Shown: positions 959 through 46,039 of the stretch, piece after piece
Layout of the letters: the number at the start of each line of letters is the position of its first letter
How positions within the stretch are numbered: position 1 is the first letter of the stretch
Assembly: GCA_016630905.1 (NCBI GenBank)
Contig: WBMQ01000004.1
Span: 1,550,001-1,614,000, forward strand
Direction of reading: 5' to 3'
Origin: Capillidium heterosporum
Lineage: Eukaryota > Entomophthoromycota > Entomophthoromycetes > Entomophthorales > Capillidiaceae
DNA length: 64,000 bases
Made by a program: the position numbers and the translations under genes
The notes under the pieces: generated by a model
Told to the model about the DNA's origin: nothing
The model's input: the letters and a program-made list of their open reading frames with translations, nothing else
The model's database searches: none

Positions 959-1678
959 TGTAAGGAAATCCTTTTAATCAGCTGTAGCTTCACTTAATAA
1001 CTAGAATTCAGTTTTACATTCAGGACACATAGATTACCAGTTCGGCATCGATCCTAGCAATGCTAGAAGTTCTTTTCTCTTTAGCATGAATTAAGCGTTT
1101 TATTTAGCATTGACTGTCTCTAAATCAGCCTTGGCATTTTTTGGGTTAATGATGAATGCTCAGAAAACAAGAGGAATAGTGTTACTGATAGATTAGGGAA
1201 AATGTCAATTACTAGTATCCTAAGTACCAACTACTAAAGACAAGTCACCTATATAAGGCCCACGGTGAACTTAGTAGTAGGTTAAGTTATATTTAAATAA
1301 ACATATTGAATCATTTGATATTTCTTCTGCTATTGGCATAGTATAGACTCCCTGCATAGTATAACGTAGAACTGATAATCGGCATCCCTTGACAGTAGAG
1401 AGTTGCGCTGATCTGAACCAAACAAAAGAACTGAACCGAATTGATCTGAACTAAACCCTAGAACCCTCCTGAACCAATGAACCCGACTGTGCTCCTTAGC
1501 CTGATGGCTACCCTTGGAGTATTCCTATCTGCCCACTGTCTCTGGATTAGGCTACAAGCACGAGCCTCCTCCTTATATAACCTTATGGTCAACGTTCTTA
1601 GCCTTTATGGAGTCCTGGCTACCATTGCTCCCTGGCTAACCCCAGCTGGTGAACGTTCCTTATGGGCGTTTCCCAACA
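959..1678 (+). mobile_element. Solo LTR, family 2, inserted in the transposase remnant
   Basis: The 720-bp unit begins TGTAAG and ends CCCAACA and is flanked by a 5-bp direct repeat GAGTG (954-958 and 1679-1683). Removing it restores continuity of the flanking transposase remnant. A diverged second copy lies at 10677-11293. An ATG frame starts at 1477 and stays open to the LTR end, encoding a hydrophobic peptide (MNPTVLLSLMATLGVFLS...). This recalls the Gag leader of the family 1 element, so the LTR probably encodes the first part of a Gag protein. No internal region remains. Confidence 0.75.
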
Positions 1679-2913: not shown

Positions 2914-4701
2914 TGTAAGGTCCAGGGAGGTATCGCTGGATCCAGTCAATGATGGCATCATATTGGGAACTCATGACGTGGTAGGTCAGGAAAGCGGAAC
3001 TAAGGCCCACTACTGCATTGGTGACAAAAGCTTGAATTCTCCGGAGGGCAGGCCGGACAGCCAGGTGAAGGAGATACAACATAAGGAGCGCCCATACAAT
3101 GGTAGTCAAGTCCCAGTTCCAGGGGGGAACTAAAGAGACGGGTTGGGACTGGGAAGTGGAGTGGTGCTGAACTAAAGGGGGCCGGCTAGGTAGTGGTTGT
3201 GCGACCACCGGTGCCACAGTGTTAGGGTCAAAAGTAGGGGTTGGTTGATAGGTCAACGTTGGTTCAAAGGGGTAGACAGTATTAGTAATGTAACAACCCT
3301 GGTTGTTACAATTCCTAATCTAAGGTTATCGACCAATTTTCTTTGCACACTATACTATTTTCTTTCCCTTACCAATCTTCGATTTTCTACTTTCCATTTA
3401 TATCTAGTTTCGAACAGAAATATGTTCTATTTATTAGATATTCTTGACAATTTCCCATATTCGTAATCTCGGCTATAAGTTAGGAACCCCAGCTATTACC
3501 AGCATAGCATTTTGATATCGGGATTCGGATATTCAGCAAGTATTGCCAAGATACCGAAAGGGTATTTAAACCCTTGGAATGCCATTGAAGGCTGGTATCT
3601 TGACAACGTTCCACCTCGCTATTTTCTAAATAGCTGTTACTCACCTCTTGATCTCAACCATCAACTATAGCTGTTGCGACAGCCTGATCTGTTTCCCTTG
3701 CCATAGCTGTCTCTGACAGCCTGATCTGTTTCCCCTGCCATAGCTGTCTCTGACAGCCTGATTCTGTTTCGTCTACGAATAAAGTATTGTTCCTGGTCAG
3801 CCTTTTAGTTATTAGATCGTGCGAATATGTGGTTCGACTTCTATACCCTCTTAGCTCACTCCGTTCAAACTTTCTTCGCTTCCCTTTGGACTTACCTCCT
3901 TTGGGTGATTCATATTACCAATGCTGTGGTCGGCATTGGTTCTACTGTCCCAACCTCTCATGTCATACGCTCCCATTATGACACCATCATTAGTTGGATT
4001 CAACGGCACCCCCTTGGACCTTACAAGTAACATTAATTGCCCAAAGAAGATGAGATCCGAGGGTAGCGAGGATCGTCAAAAGGTAATAGGAGGCTGGAAG
4101 GACAGGGAGACTAGACCACATAGTATTACTATGCCGAAAGTAAAAGTACGGGTAAAGTATAAGTTTATTTAGGGACAAAGGGCAAGATCAGGCTGCTGGG
4201 AACAGCTATGGCTAGGGACAGGGGGTGAGTAACAGCTATTTAGAAAATAGCAAGGTGGAACGTTATCAAGATGCCGGCTTTTGGTAGTCGTCGAGGGGTT
4301 TAAATATCTCTTTGGCATTTTGGTTGTAGGGATGCTAGCGGGATTGGTTTCCCCTTCGGCAATCCACTACTCTATAGATTAATTGAGTGTTTACCAAGTT
4401 TATCCAAAAGAGCCGGTAATTCGATTAACTACTACTGGTGCGTTTCTATGGTTGGAAGGTGTAGATCAGCTAATGTGCTGCTAATCACTAGAGTTCCCAG
4501 GTTATGGTCAAGTTTAAGAAGATAATCAAGGTAATCGAAATAATTGATATGTGGGGTGGATTCATAACTAAGATAGTTATGAATTGGAGAACAAAAAAAA
4601 AGAATTTGAAAATTAGTAAGAAGTAGAAAGAGGAAGGGAATCTAAGAAAGGAATAGGTCTATGACCTAATAATCGGGGTTGTGACAACCAGGGTTGTTAC
4701 A
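2914..4701 (-). repeat. 3' LTR of the chromovirus, split by a solo LTR
   Basis: Positions 2914-3288 match 9341 to about 9715, and 4026-4701 match 9711-10383. The intervening 3289-4025 is a separate LTR insertion with its own AGTAA duplication. The LTR edge at 4701 (TGTAACAACC on the minus strand) abuts a purine-rich tract, as expected for plus-strand priming. Confidence 0.88.
3289..4025 (+). mobile_element. Solo LTR (family 1, short subtype) nested in the 3' LTR
   Basis: The 737-bp unit runs from TGTAACAACC to GGACCTTACA, flanked by AGTAA at 3284-3288 and 4026-4030. It contains AATAAA (about 3780) and, from an ATG at 3827, an open frame to the LTR end (MWFDFYTLLAHS... ending in GPY) homologous to the Gag leader of the full-length element. 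It lacks the Pro/Gln-rich stretch present in the 1,043-bp LTR, so it represents a shorter subtype. It is the youngest insertion in the nest. Confidence 0.85.
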
Positions 4702-7700
4702 CTATCCCCCTTCTTCCCCCTTCTCATAGAGCTTCTTGGTCTTACAGTGAGGGTTTGATAAGTAGTACTGGTCCACCTTGTCTTTGCAGTTATTGCAGTT
4801 CCGAGCTGGTATCCAGGAATTTTCTACCTCGTCATAATCTTTCCATTTGATCAGGAACCAAGGCTTGTGGTAACGGATTTTGGCTGCTATGATTTTCTCA
4901 ACTTCAAACTCTTCAGAGGGTGAGATTTCTATAAGGTTGGTTGGAGGTTGTTCAGCCGGCTTTGGGGATGGTGTTAATTGACTTACATGGAAGATATTAT
5001 GGACTTTGACTGTATCGGGTAGTTTTACTTTATAGACTAACCTTGATTTGCGTTCTAGGATCTGGTAGGGACCGTAACGTTTCCAGTCTAGTTTTTTCAA
5101 GGGCCTTTTACTGCATAAGTTGGGGGCATCAATCAATACCCAGTCTCCAAGCTCGTAGGAAGGTTCCTCCTGATGATGTTGATCGTAGTATTTCTTATAG
5201 TATTCTTGGCTACGCTCTAGGCATCCTTTAAGCTGAGTCTGGACAGTAGCGATGTGACGGACTCGTTCTTCTGCTGATGGTATCTGCTCTTTATGGGGTC
5301 GACGAGTATTGAACTCTGGATGGAATCCATAATTGGAGTAAAATGGAGAAGTGCCTATGCTCTGGTGATACGAGTTGTTGTAAGCAAATTCGGCCAATGG
5401 TAGGAGTTGGGACCAATTATTCTGCTGATAGTTCACAAATCATCTCAAATAGCCTTCCAACGTGCGATTGGTTCTTTCGGTTTGACCGTCTGTCTGGGGT
5501 CTGGCTGCTGTACTCAGCTTTAGAGTGATACTTAACAGTTCACATACTCGAGACCAAAAGGCACTCACAAATTGGGGCCCTCGATCTGACAGTATGCTGT
5601 TAGGAGTTCCGTGCTTAGCAAAGACCTGGTTAATGAATACTTTGGCCGTTTCTTCTGCGGTAATAGACGACATTGGAATGAATAAGGCGTATTTGGTCAG
5701 ACGATCAACAATAACCATCACATAACGATAACCTTCTGAGCTGGGGAGTTCACCAATAAAATCCACTGTGAGTTCTACCCATGGCTTTGCTGGTACCCCC
5801 AAAAGTTGTAATAAGCCTGAAGCTTTTGTATTCCTATCACGGCAGCGTGCACAAACTAGGCAATCCTTCACATACTTCTCGACTTGGGTCTTTAGCTAAG
5901 GCCAAAAGAACTCGTGTCGAATTAGATCCCAAGTTTTCTTTACCCCTCCGTGGCCGGCGATTGGGTGGTCATACTTCAGGCTCATTACTTCTGCCTGTAA
6001 TTCTGGAGTTGGGACTACACAGCGACAATTAAAATACAATAGGTCATCATAGAGTTCAAAACCCTTTGGTACTTGTTTCTTTTCTTTTAGTGCTAGGTAG
6101 TACAGGTGAGTTCTGTGACTTTCCTTTATCCTTCCAAACAGATCTGTGGGGGTACCTTCTTTTGAGAAGACAGCTCCCATGATGAACTTTTCGGGACCTA
6201 GGAGGGTTGTAGTATTAACTAGATCACGGTACTTCAGGGCTTCCACTAGATCTGATCTCCTGCTTAGGGCATCAGGTAGAACTTGCTTACTACCTGGTCG
6301 GTAGGTGATGAAGAAGCGGTACTGGGCTACGAGTTGGCTCCAACGAAACTGTCGTGGTGTCAGTTTCTGGGAAGTTTTAAAGTATTCCAAGTTGCGGTGA
6401 TCGGAGTACACTACAACGGGATACTTACTACCAAGTAAGTACTGTTTCCAGTGGTCAAGGGCGTCTAGGATGGCAAGGAGCTCCTTATCATATACTTCAT
6501 AATTTATTTGGGCAGCAATAAGCTTCCTAGCGTGGTAGGCTACTGGTCGTAACCCTGTTCCATCCTGTTGGAGCAACACTGCACCCAGTGCATAATCACT
6601 GGCATCTGTCTGAAGGAAGAATCGCTCTTCCACGTTCGGGATTTGCAGGACTGGAGCTGTACATACCAATTTCCTTAACAATTCGAATGAATGTTCACAT
6701 TCCGGGGTCCAGCTAAGTGTTTTTGACATGCCTGCAGTTAGCGCAGTCAAGGGTAAGGCAATTTGGGAGTAGTTGGGTATAAAACGGCGTGAGTAGTTCA
6801 CAAATCCTAGGAAAGATCTGACGTCCTTCTTCGTCTTTGGGTGACCCCAGTCTAAGACGGCTTGTACTTTGTCTGTAGAGATTTGAACTCCCTTATCACT
6901 AATAAAGTAACCCAGAAACTCTGTTTCTGTTTGATGGAAGATACACTTTTTGATCTTTAGGGGGAGCTGGTTGTCGTTGAAGATCTTCAGTACGGTTTTG
7001 ACATGCTGGACATGCTCCTCTAGAGTGTTACTAAAGATCAAGATATCATCCAAGTATGCTGTAACAAATATATCCAGGTAGGGGAAAAGGAGCTCGTTCA
7101 CCATGTTTTGGAAGGTCGCTGGGGCATTAGTCAAGCCAAAAGGCATAACTACCCATTCAAATTGACCATAGCGACACTTGAAGGAGGTCTTCCACTCATG
7201 GCCTGGGGCAATTCGGATCTGATGGTACGCGTTAGGAAGGTCCAGTTTCGTGAAATACTTTTTTCCCTTGATTCGGTCCAACAGCTCTTCTACGTTTGGG
7301 ATAGGGTACCGATTCTTAACAGTAATGTCATTTAACATCCGGTAATCTACACATAAGCGCCGGGTACCATCTGACTTGCCCACAAACAACAAAGGCGCGC
7401 ACATTGGTGCCTTACTCTCTCGTATGAAACCTTTGGCTAGTAAGTCGTCAATGAATAGCTTTAATTCCTGCAATTGCTTTTCGGACATTGGGAACAGTTT
7501 GGGTGTTGGAAGTTTAGCATTAGGGATTAAGTCGATTGCATGATCATGTTTGGTAGGGACTCTCAGTCGGTTTTGATTTGAACTATCCCATACAAAGTGA
7601 AACTGGCGGTACTCTTCAGGTGGGAGAGGGAGGAGGTCATTTTTCGTGATTACTGGTTCGACTTCAGGAAGTAATGGGATATCTAGTAACGCTTCTGGAG

Positions 7701-8208
7701 GGACTTCCAAAGAATTGGGATATTCCTGGAGGCATTTGAACTCCTGGTCTTGAATGTATAGACTCTTCCGATCCCAGTTAAAGATAAGTTTTGCCTGAGT
7801 TATCCAGGGGAGCCCTAGTACCAGTGAGAATGGCATGTTTTCTAGGCAGATTGGGTCAATGGTATAAGATGGTGGGAGATTTTCCTTATGTAACAGTAGG
7901 GAAAAGGGGACTTTGGCTCTTTTGGTGCTAGAGCTTAAGGGTGAACCTGTTAGTCCTTGAAGCTTAGGGCCAAAAGGGTCCGATGTGGTAACGATTGATG
8001 TGGCATCTACAAGCTTTTGGGAAATTAGGTTGTAAGTGGCCCCAGTATCAATTAAGGCAAAAGTATGGAAGGGGACCTCCAATGCTAACGTTACTGGGAG
8101 GAGTAGATGTTGGTAGGGACTAGGGACAAAAGAGGTTGCTTGTACTTCATAAGGATCTAGCTTGCCCAAGGCAGGAAGTACCGGGCTTATTGAAAACTTG
8201 GTGTTACC
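4702..8208 (-). CDS. pol: Pol polyprotein (PR-RT-RNaseH-IN-chromodomain), two in-frame stops
   Basis: The frame opens near 8208, overlapping the gag end by about 20 nt in the -1 frame; no ATG is needed if frameshifting is used. Order: aspartic protease (LIDTGATY), reverse transcriptase (YLDD), RNase H (QTDASDYALG, YSDHRN), integrase zinc finger (HPIAGH, then CLVCARC), DDE core (VDFIGELP, LSDRGPQF, QTERTNR) and a C-terminal chromodomain (FEVEKIIAAKI, WKDYDEVENSWIP). The frame is interrupted twice: TAG at 5893-5895 between WP and LKTQVEKY in the zinc-binding region, and TGA at 5437-5439 after EGYLR. Each could come from one C-to-T or G-to-A transition. All catalytic motifs remain, so decay is recent. 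Confidence 0.88.
4703..4725 (-). other. Polypurine tract next to the 3' LTR
   Basis: The minus strand reads as an almost pure purine run (AAGGGGGAAGAAGGGGGA) ending at the pol stop codon TAG, directly followed by the LTR start TGTAAC. This is the plus-strand primer position. The last pol codons are therefore built from the tract, and the stop abuts the LTR. Confidence 0.75.
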
Positions 8209-9806
8209 TCATTATCGATATTCTTGGTGGGGCATTTGTTAATATTATGGGTATTAGAGGCACAATAGAAGCACAAGCTATTGTCTTTACGTCTTTGGAT
8301 CTCTTCCTGAGATAGCTTAGGTCGAGACTTAGGGAACGTTGCAAGAACCCGAGAACCTGTATCCTTCAGACTCGGGGCATAGCCAGGGCCGATGGCAGCA
8401 ATGACTTCAGATGGGTTATTATCTGGCGGTGTTAGCAGGTCTCCTACTTCATGTATCCTTGGTGGACTTGAGGAAAGATTAGGCTCCTGCTCTACACTTT
8501 CTTGGTTAGACAGTCGTGCGGTTTGGGTCATGGCTTCCAATAAGGTTTTGGGAAAAGGTAATAGGCGCATTTTTTCGTACAAGGGCTGCTTGATACTCTT
8601 CAAGTATAGGTCAATTTTCACTTGCTCATCGTAGGGAGTGAGCTCAGCGTACTCTAAGAACCTTAAGTTGAAATTACTGGTTTTTTGAGCTCCTTGTCGA
8701 AGACCTAGGATCTTAGTGTACTCTCGCTCTGATGAACCAAAGAAGGTAAGAAAGCGTTCGGAGACTTCCGCATAAGACAAGTTTTCCTGAGCAGTCGCTC
8801 TACCCATGTTTTTGCTCCAAGAGCAGGCTGGGCCTGATGTAGCGGCTAGTAAATGGGTGATCTTATCTGCATCTCGAGTGATAGGAGGTTCTTGAGTGTG
8901 GAAATAGAGTCCAAGGTCACGTAAGAAATTGAGGATAAGGTGCTCTTCACTATTGAACCGGGGAAATGGGTGTTGTGCGACTGGGGGCTTGTGAATAACG
9001 TTAATCAACTGGGTAGGGTTAGCTTGGGTCGTAATGATTTGATTAGCAACAGTATTTATAGCCATGTTAGAATTAGTCTCAGAGGTAGTTTTGGTTGTTA
9101 CAATGGTAGCGGCTTCATCAATTGGGTCCACTATTTTTTGAACTTCAGTTGAAACTTTCTTTGCTTGTTTATCTGTGACTGGAATTACCCGGTCTTGAGT
9201 ATCTTGAGTTGAGGCGATCATTGGCAGGATATAGGCGTGATAGAGACAAATCCCTAAGACGGTACATCCGGGGAGCAGGGCCGACAAAACCAGAACATTG
9301 GGGTGGGCTGGCATGGAGTCGGTTAGAGATCTTAACAAACTGTAAGGTCCAGGGAGGTATCGCTGGATCCAGTCAATGATGGCATCATATTGGGAACTCA
9401 TGACGTGGTAGGTCAGGAAAACGGAACTAAGGCCCACTACTGCATTGGTGACAAAAGCTTGAATTCTCCGGAGGGCAGGCCGGACAGCCAGGTGAAGGAG
9501 ATACAACATAAGGAGCGCCCATACAATGGTAGTCAAGTCCCAGTTCCAGGGGGGAACTAAAGAGACGGGTTGGGACTGGGAAGTGGAGTGGTGCTGAACT
9601 AAAGGGGGCCGGCTAGGTAGTGGTTGTGCGACCACCGGTGCCACAGTGTTAGGGTCAAAAGTAGGGGTTGGTTGATAGGTCAACGTTGGTTCAAAGGGGT
9701 AGACAGTATTAGTAACATTAATTGCCCAAAGAAGATGAGATCCGAGGGTAGCGAGGATCGTCAAAAGGTAATAGGAGGCTGGAAGGACAGGGAGACTAGA
9801 CCACAT
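8187..9806 (-). CDS. gag: Gag with N-terminal membrane segments encoded in the LTR
   Basis: From the ATG at 9806 (MWSSLPVLPASYY...) the frame gives about 539 residues. The first ~155 codons lie inside the 5' LTR (down to 9341) and the frame crosses the LTR/internal junction without a break (GPY-SLLRS). Hydrophobic segments appear at the N-terminus (YYLLTILATLGSHLLWAI), mid-leader (LTTIVWALLMLYLLHLAV) and just after the LTR (VLVLSALLPGCTVLGICLY). A conventional capsid-like region follows (FPRFNSEEHLILNFL...), then one CCHC zinc knuckle (CFYCASNTHNINKC) near the C-terminus, as in nucleocapsid domains. Membrane-spanning segments in a Ty3-type Gag are unusual. An upstream in-frame TTG would extend it by 19 codons but the ATG is preferred. 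Confidence 0.82.
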   Translation of the reverse strand: MWSSLPVLPASYYLLTILATLGSHLLWAINVTNTVYPFEPTLTYQPTPTFDPNTVAPVVAQPLPSRPPLVQHHSTSQSQPVSLVPPWNWDLTTIVWALLMLYLLHLAVRPALRRIQAFVTNAVVGLSSVFLTYHVMSSQYDAIIDWIQRYLPGPYSLLRSLTDSMPAHPNVLVLSALLPGCTVLGICLYHAYILPMIASTQDTQDRVIPVTDKQAKKVSTEVQKIVDPIDEAATIVTTKTTSETNSNMAINTVANQIITTQANPTQLINVIHKPPVAQHPFPRFNSEEHLILNFLRDLGLYFHTQEPPITRDADKITHLLAATSGPACSWSKNMGRATAQENLSYAEVSERFLTFFGSSEREYTKILGLRQGAQKTSNFNLRFLEYAELTPYDEQVKIDLYLKSIKQPLYEKMRLLPFPKTLLEAMTQTARLSNQESVEQEPNLSSSPPRIHEVGDLLTPPDNNPSEVIAAIGPGYAPSLKDTGSRVLATFPKSRPKLSQEEIQRRKDNSLCFYCASNTHNINKCPTKNIDNEVTPSFQ

Positions 9807-10383
9807 AGTATTACTATGCCGAAAGTAAAAGTACGGGTAAAGTATAAGTTTATTTAGGGACAAAGGGCAAGATCAGGCTGCTGGGAACAGCTATGGCTAG
9901 GGACAGGGGGTGAGTAACAGCTATTTAGAAAATAGCAAGGTGGAACGTTATCAAGATGCCGGCTTTTGGTAGTCGTCGAGGGGTTTAAATATCTCTTTGG
10001 CATTTTGGTTGTAGGGATGCTAGCGGGATTGGTTTCCCCTTCGGCAATCCACTACTCTATAGATTAATTGAGTGTTTACCAAGTTTATCCAAAAGAGCCG
10101 GTAATTCGATTAACTACTACTGGTGCGTTTCTATGGTTGGAAGGTGTAGATCAGCTAATGTGCTGCTAATCACTAGAGTTCCCAGGTTATGGTCAAGTTT
10201 AAGAAGATAATCAAGGTAATCGAAATAATTGATATGTGGGGTGGATTCATAACTAAGATAGTTATGAATTGGAGAACAAAAAAAAAGAATTTGAAAATTA
10301 GTAAGTAGAAAGAGGAAGGGAATCTAAGAAAGGAATAGGTCTATGACCTAATAATCAGGGTTGTGACAACCAGGGTTGTTACA
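9341..10383 (-). repeat. 5' LTR of the chromovirus (1,043 bp)
   Basis: On the minus strand it begins TGTAACAACCCTGGTTGTCACA and ends GGACCTTACA. It contains an AATAAA at about 9851-9856 and the gag ATG at 9806. No obvious tRNA-complementary primer site starting TGG follows the LTR end (the next bases are GTTTGTTAAG), and that position lies inside the gag frame. Confidence 0.88.
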
Positions 10384-10658
10384 GTAACAGCCTGATCTGT
10401 TTTGTCTACAAATAAAGTATTGTTTTTAGTCAGCCTTTTAGTTATTAGATTGTATGAATATATAGTTTGACTTTTATACTCTCTTAGCTTACTCTGCTCA
10501 AACTTTCTTTACTTTCCTTTAGACTTACCTCCTTTAGATGATTTATATTACCAATTCTGTAGTTGGCATTGGTTCTACTATCCCAATCTCTCATGTTATA
10601 CACTCTTATTATGACATTATCATTATTTAGATTCTATAGTACCTTCTTAGACCTTACA
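10384..10658 (+). mobile_element. Decayed solo LTR (family 1), right part
   Basis: It begins with the GTAAC duplication and continues the LTR interrupted at 2913, ending TTAGACCTTACA. Compared with 3750-4025 the great majority of differences are C-to-T or G-to-A in all sequence contexts, and the leader ORF is destroyed. Confidence 0.75.
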
Positions 10659-10676
10659 AAAAGTCTATACTATACT

Positions 10677-14521: not shown

Positions 14522-15050
14522 AGCTTTATTTTTCGCATAGTGCTGTATTTAGTTGTTTTGATAATTGGTGAGTATGGCATAGCTAATTTCCCACTATCTA
14601 TTGGTACTTTCAAATGTACATGAACTAGCAATAGTTACTAAATCAACCCTAGCCATTGCATTCTTAGAAGTGCCACATAGAAGCTTCATAAATACACTAC
14701 ATAGTGCATATCTTAAAACTATAAATTTAGACACATGCCTCTACTAAAGACAGCAGCCTATTCTCGCCTTCCATGCAACAAGCTTATAAGCACATTTCTA
14801 ACTATAGGCTATTTAGTATTAATAAAGTGAACACTGACTGCTAGTTGTAGAAATGGACAAATGTCGGCACCATATCAACTAGATAGATAAACTTATCCAC
14901 ACACTGGTAAATTGATGGAATTCAAGTCACATACTTGAAGTATATATCTGCATAGCTTAGATAAATTTGGATTGATTGAAGCAGGTTCGAAGTAATTAAT
15001 TTCTTTGAGTATGCATCCAGTGAAAAAGAACAAGTTGCTTAAAACAACAA
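14522..15050. other. Intergenic, no gene seen
   Basis: Sequence between the STR2 stop and tRNA-Tyr 1; no coding or RNA features seen apart from the AACAACAA motif directly before the tRNA. Confidence 0.4.
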
Positions 15051-15134
15051 CCCTCTTTAGCTCAGTTGGAAGAGCGTGGGACTGTAATTCAAATAGTCAT
15101 CCCGAGGCCCCTGGTTCGATCCCAGGAGGAGGGA
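15051..15134 (+). tRNA. tRNA-Tyr(GTA), intron-containing, copy 1
   Basis: The 84-nt gene has a 7-bp acceptor stem (CCCTCTT / AGGAGGG, discriminator A), D arm, anticodon GTA and a T arm with GGTTCGATCC. About 11 nt (TTCAAATAGTC) interrupt the anticodon loop after position 37, the normal place for a eukaryotic tRNA-Tyr intron. A T-run (CTTTTT) at about 15138 is the Pol III terminator. The same sequence recurs at 19698-19781 and 45956-46039. Confidence 0.95.
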
Positions 15135-15686
15135 CATCTTTTTGGGACCTGCTCTGGTACCCTTTTTTGCCAAGTTTTCCAGCCGATCTGGAATCTTACA
15201 TTTTTAAATCACTAGGTTTGAGATTAAACCAAGACTCTTCTCAATTTAAATCAGGCTTTTATAAGCTATTTGATACTATACTTTTGGGGAGTAAGCTACC
15301 TAAGACTTGGCGCTTAAGTCCTTGTTGATACACTTAATCCCTTCCAAAAGCCATTTGTTTGGGAAAGTGGCTTAAATTATTAGTATAAAGTTGGGCTACT
15401 GCTATTCAATTTCAACGGCAACCTTATAAATAACAGCCAGTTTTACATTGGAGTATAGCTAAATATGAAACAAAATTAGGCCCTCCTAACAAGCTGCCCA
15501 GTTTTACTTGTTTGGACTCGGCCTTTCTGTCAAAGTTTTATCAGTTTTTATCACTTTACCTTTCAAACCGCACCTTTTCAAAGTTTTCTCAAGCTATTAG
15601 GCATTTTTAGCACCAAGTCAAGTTTAGCATAGGAACGAAATCGACACTACAACACTTATTTATCAAAATTTTTAGAATATACAAGT
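15135..15686. other. Intergenic, no gene seen
   Basis: The open frame that runs through the tRNA into this stretch is fortuitous. Probable upstream region of the TVP15-like gene. Confidence 0.4.
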
Positions 15687-19061: not shown

Positions 19062-19697
19062 TAAATTCTATATACTTCATTTTAAAGCTTAACAATATGA
19101 ATTTAATTTCAATTGTAGAATACATCTTAAGGTATGGCTTTACAATACATTTATTATTTTAAAGCAATTCATTATTACCCTTTCAAAATATTTATGTCGA
19201 TTTTAATAACAATTCTTTTATATTTAAAAGCTATATACACTAATTATATCGTTTTTTGAAATGTTTACCAACTTTGTATTTTAATTGAAAGCTTCGAAAC
19301 CAAAGCAAACTTGCATATAAGCCTCTTGTTTGTATACATATAATTTAATGTATAATGGTGTTTCAATAAGCAGGCTTATAGCTACTATAATAGTATCTTT
19401 TATAGAATTTATAAACATTTTAATTTGCAAGCATTGCTACTATAGATTATATATTCGAATATTATATTAGTTTCAAACTTATTTCCAGCAATGAAATTCT
19501 AATATAAGACGTCTCCTAAAAACTTATTCATTAAAACATGTATATTATTGCAGGATACTTAATAAGACATGTCAATGTCAAAAACAACATTGCGATGTTT
19601 TCTATCCTTAAATTTGGTACTTAAAGGTGTAACACGGGACATGTATATTAGAAAAGGTACAGAAAGACCAGCATCAGGAAATCTATGTAAAAAGGAA
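19062..19697. other. Intergenic, no gene seen
   Basis: AT-rich sequence between the glutaredoxin-like gene and tRNA-Tyr 2; nothing recognised. Confidence 0.4.
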
Positions 19698-19781
19698 TCC
19701 CTCCTCCTGGGATCGAACCAGGGGCCTCGGGATGACTATTTGAATTACAGTCCCACGCTCTTCCAACTGAGCTAAAGAGGG
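19698..19781 (-). tRNA. tRNA-Tyr(GTA), intron-containing, copy 2
   Basis: Identical to the gene at 15051-15134, including the 11-nt intron. On the minus strand the upstream flank TTAAAACAACAA matches that of copy 1, and a CTTTTT terminator follows. The shared flank suggests a duplicated tRNA unit or a conserved initiator context. Confidence 0.95.
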
Positions 19782-20336
19782 TTGTTGTTTTAATCAACTT
19801 GATGTTTCACTTAATGTAAATATATATCCTAATAATTTAAGTGCATATTAGTGAATTAGGCTAGTTATCAATTTCTATACTCCAACTGTTTATATGTTAA
19901 AATCATTTGATATATGCATTAGTTAATGATAATCTTCATATTTAGTACACTCGATTTGTAGTATGTTGTCAATTGTATATTTTATGAATATGCTAATCCT
20001 AACTATTAGGCCAGGTATTTTCATATTATAGCTATTGGTAACAATATGGGTTGAAGCTGCAGTTGTAAATTTATCTTGTATACTACAAAAGTATATAGCT
20101 ATCTTTTTATAGAATTAATAAGGTCTTGGCAGCATTCCAAACTTTAAACATCACAATCTATTATTGTTCCAATTATTTAAAATTTTCAAGCTTCACAAAA
20201 CTCATCATCATGAAATCTGATAGTTAAATTACAACTTCGCATACTCATAGATAGATAAATTAAACGTAAAAGACTAGAACACTTGAACCTAAAAATTTAT
20301 TGGGTATTTGTTTACTCTTCAAAACTTCCTTTCAGC
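19782..20336. other. Intergenic, no gene seen
   Basis: This contains the UBA1 3' flank; no ORF or RNA gene recognised. Confidence 0.4.
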
Positions 20337-28093: not shown

Positions 28094-29889
28094 TTAATAA
28101 GCCATAGCTAACCCATTCTTTCGCAAATCGGATATGGCAATCACCTTATCGAACCCTTTACCTTGCTCTAAATTTGGGTACCCATCTTCCCTAGGTTTAG
28201 CGAAGACTACATTGACGTTAGACTCGGTGATTTCGTTCTCAACAATAGTAAAGTTCAGCTGTTGCAAGTACGTTAAAGTCTCCTCGCTGAATCCACCTTT
28301 CTCCAGCCTGAGATTGCCGGGACTGAGTTGATTATGGATCCTAGGGTACCCCATACCTTCCTTCAACTCCAGGCCTAAAGTAAAGTAATCACTCAAGGTT
28401 TGGGCTACGCTAGTGACGATTCGAGAGCCACCACTCGATCCAATAGCTATAGTTTCCTTTGTCATTAAACAAGATCAGTGGAGTCATGGAGGACTGGGGA
28501 CGTTTCCCAGGCTTTATGAAGTTGAATTGGGAAGGGGCTAGACCGAAGGCGTTAGTTACACCTGGGGTACTGAAGTCATCCATCTGGTTATTGAATAGAA
28601 TACCAGTATTGGGATCTAAAACTTTGGATCCAAATTCGGTGTTGGTAGTCGAGGTGACGGAGACAGTTAAGCCGAACTTGTCGATTACTGAGATGTGCGA
28701 AGTACCTCTATCTTCAGTGAATTCTGTAGGGTCTATTCCAATCGGTTTAAAATAGAAGGAGCTGTTGAGGGTCTGGCTAGTTAAAGTTTCTTGAGCTTCC
28801 CTCGCCTTGTCTTTACTTAGTAAAAATTGCAATTGTTGATCAATATTGGTAAAGTCGGGATCTCCCAAGAGGAACCTACCTGCAAATCCAAATTTAAAAG
28901 CCTCAATAAGTTGGTGCAGGTACTCTAAACTGAACTTAGTAGGGTTGGTCTTGGTCTTGAAAATCTCCATAACTTTGAGTATAAATGTGGTTACTGAACC
29001 GGAGGCGGGAGGTGCTGGAAACAAAAAAGTAAACCCAAATATCTGTGTCGTTAGTGATTTCTCGATTTTGACTCTGTAGTTCTGTAAATCTTCTAATGTG
29101 ATGATACCACCATTCTCCTTTAAATTTTGGACTATGGATTCGGCTACCCAACCCTTGTAAAAACCATCGGGCCCCAGCTCACCAATACTTTGCAAAGTCT
29201 TAGCTAGATGGGGGTTTTTGAGAAGTTGACCCTCCTTCACCAAACTACCATCTGGGTTGCTGTAGAATGCGTTAAGGTCTTTAAACCTGGCGATCAAGTC
29301 CCTATTACGAACCAATCGTATTGCCACCTGTTTCGTCACGTTGTATCCATTCCTGCATAAGTTGACGTTGACTTCAAACAGCCGTTTCCAGTCCAGCTTG
29401 CCGTATATCTTGTGTGCTTCATGCAATCCTAAAATTTCACCAGGGACTGCGACCGCTAGCCCACCATCGGTAGATGACTGCTTGGGATTAGTAAACATAT
29501 CTTGTCTAGACTGCATAGGTGCCGTTTCTCTAAAGTTGATGGAAAGGCCTTTTTCGTCACCAGGAGATTTGATTAGCATGAAACCACCACCACCTATACC
29601 TGATGCAAAAGGATATATGATGCCTTGGCAGATGGTAGAACCTATCACTGCATCCACGGCTGAACCACCTTCTTTAAGTAAGTCTATACCGATTTGAGAG
29701 CACAACTGGGCGTCGGCTGCTACCCCACCTAACTTACCTAGATTTTCAATCTGGGGATAGAGAATCTTACGTAATGGAACTAGCAAAATGAAAAGGGTTA
29801 GTTGGTGAACCTTTGTTGTCAATTAACTTACTGACTTGACTTAACAGTGTTGCTGGTAATAGATTTAGTAGGAGTAGGTGAATCTTCAT
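28094..29889 (-). CDS. Gamma-glutamyltranspeptidase 2 (tandem copy)
   Basis: Two exons: 29832-29889 encodes the signal peptide (MKIHLLLLNLLPATLLSQV), and 28094-29779 the enzyme, about 580 residues in total. It carries the same family blocks as its neighbours: GGSAVDAVIGSTICQG, FASGIGGGGFMLI, catalytic Thr in DRGTSHISVID, TTNTEFGSKV, GSSGGSRIV and the C-terminal SDLRKNGLAMAY. Closest to GGT-3, with which it shares the exon 1/exon 2 arrangement and the 3' end (stop codon within TATTAAATAA). One extra base near 28455 (NDKG/NDKE) splits the frame; length is 3n+1. A TATA-like element is present about 10-20 bp before the ATG. Predicted to act extracellularly or in the vacuole. Confidence 0.9.
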
Positions 29890-30383
29890 CGTACAGATTT
29901 TATATATTCTCTTTTGAAACAAAAGGATTTATAAAACTATTTCGTCTTATATATATGTAGTTGAACTGGAATTGTTCATTACCACATTTTCATTTACTCC
30001 TTATAAAATGTTTAGTAGAGGTGTCTTTTTTAAACTGTTGGGGAAGCTCTATAAAGCCTTTTGTAGGTTTCGGTTAAAAGTTGATGGATTTTTCTATCAC
30101 TGATAGCCAATATCTTTGATTCATTTAGCGAGTATACCTAATTGAAGTTTATTTAATTTACATTTAAATATAGGAAGTTGCATGTAAGTAGATTTATTAT
30201 TACCTATGCCTTATTTACCTAGCTTGATATCACCGATAAAGATTTTAAATCTGATCTGTATAAAGACGAAGCTGACATAAAGGTTATTTCATCACCTTAG
30301 TTCCCATTAAATGGCTTAATTCCTCTATCCAGAAAAATTAATTGAACTATAAATATGAGACAGATGTAATATCCTACGTTTAT
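29890..30383. other. Intergenic between GGT-2 and GGT-3
   Basis: About 500 bp with the GGT-2 promoter and GGT-3 3' flank; no gene seen. Confidence 0.45.
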
Positions 30384-32193
30384 TTAATAAGCCATAGCTA
30401 ATCCATCTTTTCTCAAATCAGATATAGCGACAACCTTCTCGAACTTATTACCATAACTCGGTCTACCGTAGCTCCCATACCCACTCTTTCCAAGTTTAGC
30501 CATAACAACATTGACGTTGGATTCGCTAATCGCATTTTCAACGATCGTAAAATTTAACCTCTTCAAGTAAGCCAACGTCTCTGGGCTGAACCCTCCCTTC
30601 TCGACCCGTAGGCTATCAGGGCTAAGCTGGTGGTGAACTCTAGGATATCCCATACCATCCTTCAACTCCAAACCTAGAGTGAGATGGTCACTTAAACCTT
30701 GGGCTACGCTGCTAATAATCCTTGAACCGCCGCTAGCTCCAATAGCTAACGTCTCCTTGTCGTTGAACAGAATAAGCGGAGTAATGGAGGACTGGGGGCG
30801 TTTTCCAGGTACAATGAAGTTGTATTTTGAGGGAGCTAGGCCGAAGGCGTTAGTTACGTTTGGAGAGCTGAAGTCGTCCATCTCGTTATTGAATAAAACA
30901 CCAGTGTCGGGGTCCAGAACCTTTGATCCGAAGCTAGTGTTGGTGGTCGAGGTAATAGAGATTGACAGCCCATCCTTATCTATCACTGAGACATGTGAGG
31001 TGCCTCTATCTTCGTTGAAGGTGGTAGGGTCAATGCCGATCGGCTTGAAATAGAAAGCATTGTTAAAGGTTCGGTTGGACAAAGTTGCCTGTGCTTCGAT
31101 TGCCTTATCCTTACTTAACAGGAACTGCAGCTGCTGATCAACGTTTATAAAGTCGGGATCTCCCAGCAGGAACCTACCGGCGAATCCGAATTTAAGCGCT
31201 TCGATAAATTGATGTAAGTACTCCAAGCTGAATTGGGTAGGGTTAGCCTTGGCTTTGTAAGCTTCCATAACTTTCAATATGAAGGTGGTTACTGAACCGG
31301 AGGCGGGAGGTGGTGGAAATAGAAAACTGTAATTGAATATACGAGTAGTCAACGGTTTCGAGACCTTGACCTTGTAGTTCTTCAGATCTTCTAAGCTGAC
31401 GATACCATTATTCTTTTTCAGATTTCTAACCATGGATTCGGCTACCCAACCCTGGTAGAAGCCATCGGGTCCCAACTCTCCCACGCACTGTAAAGTTTTA
31501 GCCAAACTGGGGTTCTTGATGAGCTGTCCCTCCTTCACGAAACTGCCATCCTTGTTGCTGTAGAAATCTTTGAGATCCTTGTATTTGGAGATGACCTCCT
31601 TGCTCCGTTCCAATCTCAGTGCCAGCTGCTTGGTCACGTTGAACCCATTTCTACATAAATTGACGTTGATTTCGAACAGACGTTTCCAACTCAACTTTCC
31701 ATATCGCTTGTGGGCTTCGTACAGCCCCAAGATTTCACCAGGGACCGCTACAGATAACCCGCCTTCCGTTGAAGGCTGCTTAGGGTTGGTGAACATATCT
31801 TGCCTTGATTTCTGTGGGGCCGTCTCACGAAAGTTTATAAACAGACCTTCATTATCGTCCTGCGACTTGATGACCATGAAACCTCCTCCACCGATACCTG
31901 ATCCAAATGGGTAGATGATTCCTTGGCATATAGTAGCTCCAATGGCTGCGTCTACAGCCGAGCCACCTTCCTTGAGTAAATTTACACCGATCTGGGAGCA
32001 CAGTTTGGCATCGGCTGCTACTCCACCCTTCGTACCTATCTTTTCGACTTGGGGATAGAGAGTCTTACGTAATGGGTCTAGTAAAATGCAAGAGTTAGTT
32101 GGTGGATCTTGAAATTTCCCTTTCAAACTTACCGGCTTGACTTATCAACAAAGTTGGTAGTAGGTTTAGTAAAAGTAAGCGTATATTCATCAT
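30384..32193 (-). CDS. Gamma-glutamyltranspeptidase 3 (tandem copy, intact)
   Basis: Two exons, 32133-32193 (signal peptide MMNIRLLLLNLLPTLLISQA) and 30384-32077, total 584 residues with no frame defect. All GGT landmarks are present: GGSAVDAAIGATICQG, FGSGIGGGGFMVI, FAGRFLLGDPDF, the nucleophile Thr in DRGTSHVSVID, TTNTSFGSKV, GVLFNNEMDDFS, IGASGGSRII, and C-terminal SDLRKDGLAMAY. This intact copy is the reference for judging the shifts in copies 1 and 2. The ORF visible without splicing begins at a TTG inside the intron and should not be used as start; a second ATG immediately follows the first. The three copies are head-to-tail, 500 bp apart. Confidence 0.93.
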
Positions 32194-45955: not shown

Positions 45956-46039
45956 CCCTCTTTAGCTCAGTTGGAAGAGCGTGGGACTGTAATTCAAATA
46001 GTCATCCCGAGGCCCCTGGTTCGATCCCAGGAGGAGGGA
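45956..46039 (+). tRNA. tRNA-Tyr(GTA), intron-containing, copy 3
   Basis: Same 84-nt sequence and intron as the genes at 15051 and 19698. A CTTTTT terminator follows. The upstream flank differs from the other two except for AACAA just before the gene. Confidence 0.95.

Follow-up and report, generated by a model that had tools for sequence, protein, structure and literature searches.

The window analysed here is a 64,000-nucleotide stretch of the Capillidium heterosporum genome (contig WBMQ01000004.1, positions 1,550,001 to 1,614,000 of the forward strand). It carries on its minus strand one copy of a retrotransposon, element A, and this report concerns the long N-terminal part of Gag that this element encodes within its long terminal repeat (LTR). 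Element A is a chromodomain Ty3/gypsy retrotransposon: the Pfam domains of its pol run in the order RVP_2, RVT_1, RNaseH, rve, SH3_Tf2-1 and Chromo, its Gag has a Ty3-type capsid (PF19259), and the reverse transcriptase precedes the integrase, which is not the Ty1/copia order (integrase first). Two other LTR families in the genome, B and C, also end in Gag leaders and are compared with A where they bear on the argument. The features of the window copy of element A are as follows; hydropathy values are Kyte-Doolittle means over 19 residues.

9341..10383, minus strand: 5' LTR (U3-R-U5; unique 3', repeated and unique 5' parts), 1,043 nt, direct repeats with 2914-4701
9984..9992, minus strand: TATA-like box ATATTTAAA (LTR positions 392-400); TATTTAAA in nine of ten A and B copies, not in L081
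9948..9957, minus strand: putative self-primer and predicted RNA 5' end, ATCTTGATAA; ATCTTGACAA in the eight exactly matching A and B copies
9849..9854, minus strand: AATAAA, possible poly(A) signal, upstream of the gag ATG
9341..9806, minus strand: LTR-coded Gag leader, residues 1-155 and the first base of codon 156 (155.3 codons)
9711..9767, minus strand: hydrophobic segment 1, residues 14-32, mean 1.51
9471..9527, minus strand: hydrophobic segment 2, residues 94-112, mean 1.86
9399..9455, minus strand: hydrophobic segment 3, weaker, residues 118-136, mean 1.39
9329..9338, minus strand: putative primer binding site (PBS) TTGTTAAGAT, 2 nt past the LTR, within gag codons
9240..9296, minus strand: hydrophobic segment 4, internal, just past the LTR, residues 171-189, mean 2.18
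8187..9806, minus strand: gag open reading frame (ORF), 539 amino acids, from the ATG at 9806 to the stop at 8187
8511..8948, minus strand: capsid domain, Pfam Ty3_capsid PF19259, Gag residues 287-432, E value 1.1e-7
8232..8273, minus strand: CCHC zinc knuckle of gag, CX2CX4HX4C, read by eye from the translation
5896..8208, minus strand: pol with protease, reverse transcriptase, RNase H and the start of the integrase (Pfam); overlaps gag in the -1 frame
5440..5895, minus strand: pol continued, integrase core (Pfam), bounded by in-frame stops in the window copy
4702..5439, minus strand: end of pol, SH3_Tf2-1 and chromodomain (Pfam); the stop codon adjoins the 3' LTR
2914..4701, minus strand: 3' LTR, split by a family B solo LTR

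The 5' LTR reads TGTAACAACC...GGACCTTACA on the minus strand and the element is flanked by a target duplication, GTAAC, at 2909-2913 and 10384-10388. Over its two pieces the 3' LTR matches the 5' LTR at 99.4% and 99.7% identity, and the insertion is therefore young. It seems to be nested in an older, decayed B LTR (about 2526-2913 and 10389-10666, from the repeat listing). The pol of the window copy is interrupted by stops, and the frame is open in two other copies (1,168 and 1,169 amino acids). At least 120 pol matches were listed, with 36-50% identity, and the named relatives among them include fungi, algae, a frog and a fish. The motif CX2CX4HX4C is one that we take to be the gag zinc knuckle. 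A purine-rich tract, GAGAAGGGGGAAGAAGGGGGA, lies within the pol coding sequence near the 3' LTR (4702-4725) and is likely to be the polypurine tract. With this tract in pol codons and the pol stop abutting the 3' LTR, the internal region is nearly all coding. Gag and pol overlap at 8187-8208 in the -1 frame, where a run of four Ts ahead of the gag stop is a possible frameshift site.

The LTR-coded Gag leader

The gag of gypsy elements usually starts after the primer site. In element A, the frame opens at the ATG at 9806 within the 5' LTR and crosses the end of the LTR as ...LPGPY-SLLRSL into the internal region. A first-pass annotation of this DNA had described exactly this arrangement, with correct coordinates, and had put the LTR-encoded part at about 155 codons, in agreement with the 155.3 measured here. 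It had also proposed that dN/dS (the ratio of nonsynonymous to synonymous change) be compared across genomic copies, and this comparison shows that the leader codons are not evolving neutrally.

There are at least 82 gag protein matches in the 29.5-Mb genome, from which 66 leader rows (61 distinct) were collected, each spanning residue 7 or earlier to residue 155. The ATG is kept in 59 of these rows, is replaced by an Ile codon in two and has no aligned base in the remaining five; the leader is free of stops in 37. Against L003, a copy of subfamily A3, the leader aligns in frame with no gap columns and gives dS 1.04, dN 0.15 and dN/dS 0.14, while dN/dS is 0.97 and 1.96 in the two remaining sense frames. 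In the same comparison 65 of 115 synonymous sites differ but only 47 of 350 nonsynonymous sites (Fisher p 5.6e-19), and the differences fall at codon positions 1, 2 and 3 in the numbers 31, 15 and 66. All 24 A3 rows agree (dS 0.78-1.23 and dN/dS 0.13-0.21 against the window copy). In seven A3-type comparisons the +1 and +2 sense frames give 0.80-1.02 and 1.67-2.20, respectively; of the antisense frames, one is a mirror of gag (0.16-0.26) yet contains 6-8 stops, and the remaining two give 0.60-0.73 and 1.40-2.29. For a nearer copy, L007 of subfamily A2, the leader dN/dS is 0.24 in frame against 0.67 and 1.29 in the other sense frames. These substitution patterns indicate that the leader is protein-coding and under purifying selection.

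Constraint is uneven along the protein. Against L003, dN is 0.06 for residues 1-33 and 0.11 for residues 86-137 but 0.28 for the proline-rich linker between them (34-85). The capsid is held more strictly than the leader (dN/dS 0.03-0.05 against L003, L005 and L006), and the other parts of Gag are similar to the leader (0.15-0.21). In the alignment of the window copy with L003, the leader (466 nt) is 76% identical without a gap column; identity is 58% in U3, where there are 125 gap columns, and 74% in R. The leader of L007 is near to the window copy (dS 0.38) and its capsid is far from it (dS 1.0), so L007 is probably a recombinant between subfamilies.

The first-pass annotation had placed two hydrophobic segments in the LTR part and a third just after it. 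Hydrophobic segments are indeed present, but their number is different: three lie in the LTR and a fourth just past it. Across five A copies the means are 1.31-1.53 for segment 1, 1.86-2.44 for segment 2, 1.39-1.65 for segment 3 and 2.07-2.21 for segment 4, whereas residues 206-539 of the window Gag stay below 0.5 throughout. An AlphaFold2 model of the single window sequence has helices at residues 10-35, 91-134 and 169-203, among others. The hydropathy and the model are compatible with membrane helices, and it is plausible, from the hydropathy and this low-confidence helical model, that Gag is anchored in a membrane. A Pfam search of Gag found no matrix (MA) family, and comparison of Gag with solved structures gave no match at E values up to 1. 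In another gypsy element of the same genome, L125 (G000:C18:4700-7600), whose LTR was not delimited, the gag frame has no comparable segment (highest 19-residue mean 0.95), so not every gypsy element of the genome has the trait. L125 also has a stretch after its protease that may be dUTPase-like, judged by its motif.

From the hydrophobic leader the first-pass annotation had gone on to suggest a step towards an envelope or an organelle-directed assembly route. We considered an envelope-like (env) gene and rejected it: the pol stop (4702-4704) abuts the 3' LTR at 4701, which leaves no room for an env ORF, and the first suggestion finds no support. Nothing pointing to an organelle was seen either, though no targeting prediction was run.

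Primer complementarity and the predicted RNA 5' end

Directly past the LTR, copies of families A and B read GT-TTGTCAAGAT; in 13 of the 14 junctions found its middle base is C, whereas the window copy has T. The reverse complement of the 10 nt after this GT, ATCTTGACAA, occurs exactly within the LTR in eight of ten A and B copies. An exact 10-nt match, as in these eight copies and in the family C copy L083, was reached by 0-4 of 500 mononucleotide shuffles. In L081, the LTR of which looks damaged, the match is 8 nt long (44 of 500 shuffles). In the window copy the primer and PBS sites each differ by one base from those of the other copies and pairing is kept through two G-U pairs. The predicted primer and PBS form the best duplex site in all nine copies scanned.

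The letters differ in family C, with AAGTTATTAT in the LTR and ATAATAACTT after it, and the 2-nt offset from the LTR end is the same in L083. A further C copy, C2:1464981, has AAGTAATTAT with ATAATTACTT, a base pair that is swapped and yet still pairs: C4:9221 and C2:1464981 differ by an exchange of T-A for A-T with pairing kept. Compensatory change in family C was considered on this ground and rejected, since two other copies have one mismatch each and another has two.

Ten copies, including the window copy and L083, have both a TATA-like box and a primer site, and the primer lies 34 nt past the start of TATTTAAA or TATATAAG in nine of them and 35 nt in L003. In ten of ten copies there is no ATG between the primer and the gag ATG, which is thus the first. 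All 11 copies have an AATAAA ahead of the gag ATG, at a distance of about 50 nt in families A and B and of about 180 nt in L083, and U5 may therefore be mostly leader coding sequence.

Priming by the 3' CCA end of a tRNA was also considered. The 26 bases that follow the LTR contain no TGG, a comparison that did not extend to a full tRNA set or to internal parts of tRNAs. Because of this, and because the site matches the element's own LTR instead, priming by a tRNA 3' end was rejected. The first-pass annotation had reasoned that the primer site must lie in coding sequence or be replaced by another mode of priming. Both halves find support: the putative PBS at 9329-9338 is within gag codons, and the complementarity between LTR and PBS suggests self-priming. 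The element thus looks self-primed, as Tf1 is, with a predicted RNA 5' end at the primer.

Tf1 and Tj1 are Ty3/gypsy elements of Schizosaccharomyces. Passages in PMC7175516 state that the first 11 bases of Tf1 RNA pair with the PBS, and Tj1 is described in passages of PMC4600332 as self-primed with a PBS complementary to its RNA 5' end. Element A resembles both in that the PBS beside its LTR complements the bases predicted to begin its own RNA, exactly so in the eight A and B copies and L083, and its pol carries the Pfam domain SH3_Tf2-1. It differs in that its PBS is inside gag codons, with the gag start upstream of the PBS in U5.

Interpretation and rival explanations

We think it rather probable that, in a chromodomain Ty3/gypsy lineage, U5 has come to encode a matrix-like membrane leader of Gag and that this goes together with self-priming. 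The lineage would have shifted its gag start into the U5 of the LTR. The RNA would begin about 34 nt past the TATA-like box at ATCTTGACAA, and the first ATG from there would open gag. Most of U5 would then code for an N-terminal domain with three hydrophobic helices, followed by a fourth just beyond the LTR and the Ty3-like capsid. The PBS in the gag codons would pair with the first bases of the RNA itself, which would be cleaved to prime its own reverse transcription as in Tf1. The leader is most likely a matrix-like membrane domain by function: its first helix would leave the ribosome early, recruit the signal recognition particle (SRP) and bring the translating RNA to the membrane of the endoplasmic reticulum (ER), where Gag and genomic RNA would be concentrated for particle assembly.

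If this is correct, the LTR, which is usually seen as regulatory, can encode a conserved stretch of Gag, here 155 of its 539 residues; the leader is present twice in each full element, and solo LTRs leave a fragment of a membrane protein behind. A single gypsy lineage would unite a membrane-like Gag that starts in the LTR, as in Ty1, with self-priming of the Tf1 kind, and would provide a natural test of how Gag and RNA meet in cells, a question long open. The self-primer prediction also names the exact base expected for the RNA 5' end.

Several observations weigh against this explanation. The window copy has an exact match of only 6 nt, which 477 of 500 shuffles reach, so that its pairing needs the two G-U pairs, and the margin of its duplex over the next is small (-8.4 against -7.4 kcal/mol). 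The A and B copies are related, so eight of ten are not eight independent cases. Pairing in family C is exact in two of five testable copies, with one mismatch in two and two mismatches in one (there are seven junctions, of which two with rearranged 5' LTRs were left out). Against L007 the leader, at 86.1% identity, shows no advantage over U3 (88.7%) or R (96.0%). In family B, 20 leader rows were compared with L078: the 12 nearer rows give dN/dS 0.12-0.78, and the eight most divergent give 0.44-0.87, so constraint at the larger distance is weak or lost. The helical model is a single-sequence fold of low confidence (mean pLDDT 51). Finally, the protease part of pol also peaks at a Kyte-Doolittle mean of 1.77, and hydropathy alone is therefore weak evidence.

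This last point also counts for the idea that the leader is a real part of Gag but a soluble N-terminal assembly domain, its hydrophobic helices packing together or between Gag subunits. The borderline hydropathy of segments 1 and 3 (1.31-1.65) is in its favour, and gypsy particles usually assemble in the cytosol. Segments 2 and 4, however, are strongly hydrophobic in all five A copies, and L083, a divergent copy of family C, has hydrophobic segments as well, so we regard a soluble domain as unlikely. It is very unlikely, in our judgement, that there are two products, a leader-less Gag from an internal start such as Met165 and a minor form whose leader acts apart from assembly. A Met does occur about nine codons past the LTR in six aligned A and B copies, though it is absent from the C copy, and PMC4599808 describes an alternative Ty1 transcript that encodes an inhibitory protein, a C-terminal half of Gag. 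On the other hand, the gag ATG is the first past the predicted RNA 5' end in ten of ten copies, and the leader is about as constrained against L003 as the rest of Gag outside the capsid.

A role in fusion or transfer, by which the leader would aid the passage of particles between cells or hyphae, has a counterpart in insects. Passages in PMC11952523 describe the MDG1-group sORF2 elements as envelope-less LTR elements with a membrane protein, and report that such small retrotransposon-coded proteins act in this way in Drosophila. According to the same passages, sORF2 is a separate, small, fusogen-like ORF with one transmembrane (TM) domain and a basic patch, in many cases also with a myristoylation motif, whereas the segments of element A are fused to Gag in a single frame as its leader, and we consider a transfer role highly improbable. 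Least credible is that selection acts on LTR DNA or RNA, for example on packaging or promoter signals, rather than on protein, and keeps the frame open only incidentally. LTRs do hold cis signals, and R is nearly as well conserved as the leader between A1 and A3 (74% against 76%). This idea is already contradicted by the preponderance of third-position differences against L003, and no frame of the six other than that of gag is open as well as constrained; one antisense frame has a low dN/dS as a mirror image of gag but contains 6-11 stops.

The membrane-leader explanation can be extended. U5 might be a membrane 'matrix' gene segment that serves the lineage as a packaging ticket, with the autonomous families A and C and the capsid-less family B sharing particles through the membrane to which their leaders direct them. 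We put this forward as doubtful.

Parts of what is proposed for element A have precedents. In retroviruses MA is an N-terminal, membrane-binding part of Gag ahead of the capsid, and its binding depends on lipid and charge rather than on a set of hydrophobic helices. The leader of element A is likewise N-terminal and ahead of the capsid, with no Pfam MA match. Ty1, a Ty1/copia element of Saccharomyces, shares the Gag start in the LTR and a PBS within the gag coding region: passages in PMC5454406 give a 5' untranslated region of 53 nt, a PBS at nt 95-104 and an R that starts at nt 241 of the 334-bp LTR, from which the start of Gag in the LTR follows by arithmetic. By these figures about 14 Ty1 codons are in the LTR, against 155 in element A; Ty1 is also primed by the initiator tRNA-Met and belongs to another superfamily. 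In Ty1, SRP brings Gag-translating RNA to the ER and nucleates assembly, and the Gag itself has no discernible TM domain or signal, according to passages in PMC3945221. This ER route is the mechanism proposed above, with the difference that element A has N-terminal hydrophobic segments where those passages find none obvious in Ty1.

A start of gag in the LTR (Ty1) and self-priming (Tf1, Tj1) are thus already known, and what appears to be new is a long, selected, membrane-like leader coded by U5 on a gypsy element. Our searches of open-licence literature, outside which most subscription papers lie, found no report of one. A search of gag alone and of a four-row gag alignment against 5.8 billion proteins gave no match among the 7,996 candidates sharing most words that were scored; proteins of more than 1.75 times the query length, such as a fused gag-pol, lay outside these candidates. 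Viral contigs were scanned as well and gave 17 pattern matches, none of which was confirmed.

Families B and C and other features of the window

Each of the two related families has an LTR in the window:

3289..4025, plus strand: family B solo LTR, 737 nt, target duplication AGTAA; its end codes for MWFDFYTLLAH...WIQRHPLGPY
1477..1678, plus strand: end of a family C LTR, coding for MNPTVLLSLMATLGVF...FPN

At least 150 family B LTR matches were scored. The B LTR ends in a leader of 66 codons, the last 37 or so residues of which resemble those of A (58% identity over 38). Four B copies that include an internal part were examined (L078, L079, L080 and L081), and in the three with a listed mate the leader starts of the 5' and 3' LTRs are 2,087-2,088 bases apart. 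Three of the four (L078, L079 and L081) have a single frame of 517 codons, read by eye, with the leader, segment 4, a zinc knuckle, a remnant of the protease and fragments of RNase H and integrase, and without a capsid or reverse transcriptase; a Pfam search of this frame gave protease matches only, all below the cut-off. Family B is thus a short element with gag and pol pieces fused in one frame, and the LTRs found far outnumber the internal parts. In two pairs tested for constraint on the B leader, neither result was clear (p 0.055 and 0.65). We also considered B as a selected ORF and rejected it: its protease and knuckle give dN/dS 0.16-0.18 against A (window copy), a constraint that may predate the deletions. 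The upstream part of the L081 5' LTR has, by eye, many small losses relative to L078-L080 while its ORF is intact, perhaps through sequencing error.

Family C, with at least 150 LTR matches scored, has a distinct LTR leader of 67 codons (MNPTVLLSLMATLGVF...FPN) that continues into Gag. In L083 one segment of this Gag is strongly hydrophobic (1.89), and a capsid match is weak and misses the cut-off (E value 0.0027); L124 has the same layout, with a stop soon past the LTR. When 20 C leader rows were compared with L083, the 14 with a proportion of synonymous differences (pS) above 0.3 gave dN/dS 0.19-0.37 and the six nearer rows 0.24-0.51. The B and C leader rows were chosen for open frames, which favours intact copies. 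In L124 (G000:C44:1405700-1408500) and L128 (G000:C43:1567610-1567690) the 5' LTR seems, by eye, to be head-to-head with an inverted C LTR, and in L124 the joint is at the predicted RNA 5' end, as if strong-stop DNA had snapped back.

Elsewhere in the window, inverted repeats of 119 nt (95%) at 15025-15143 and 19689-19807 carry tRNA-Tyr genes, and there is a third tRNA-Tyr gene at 45956-46039. Two adjacent gamma-glutamyltranspeptidase ORFs lie on the same strand at 28410-31877.

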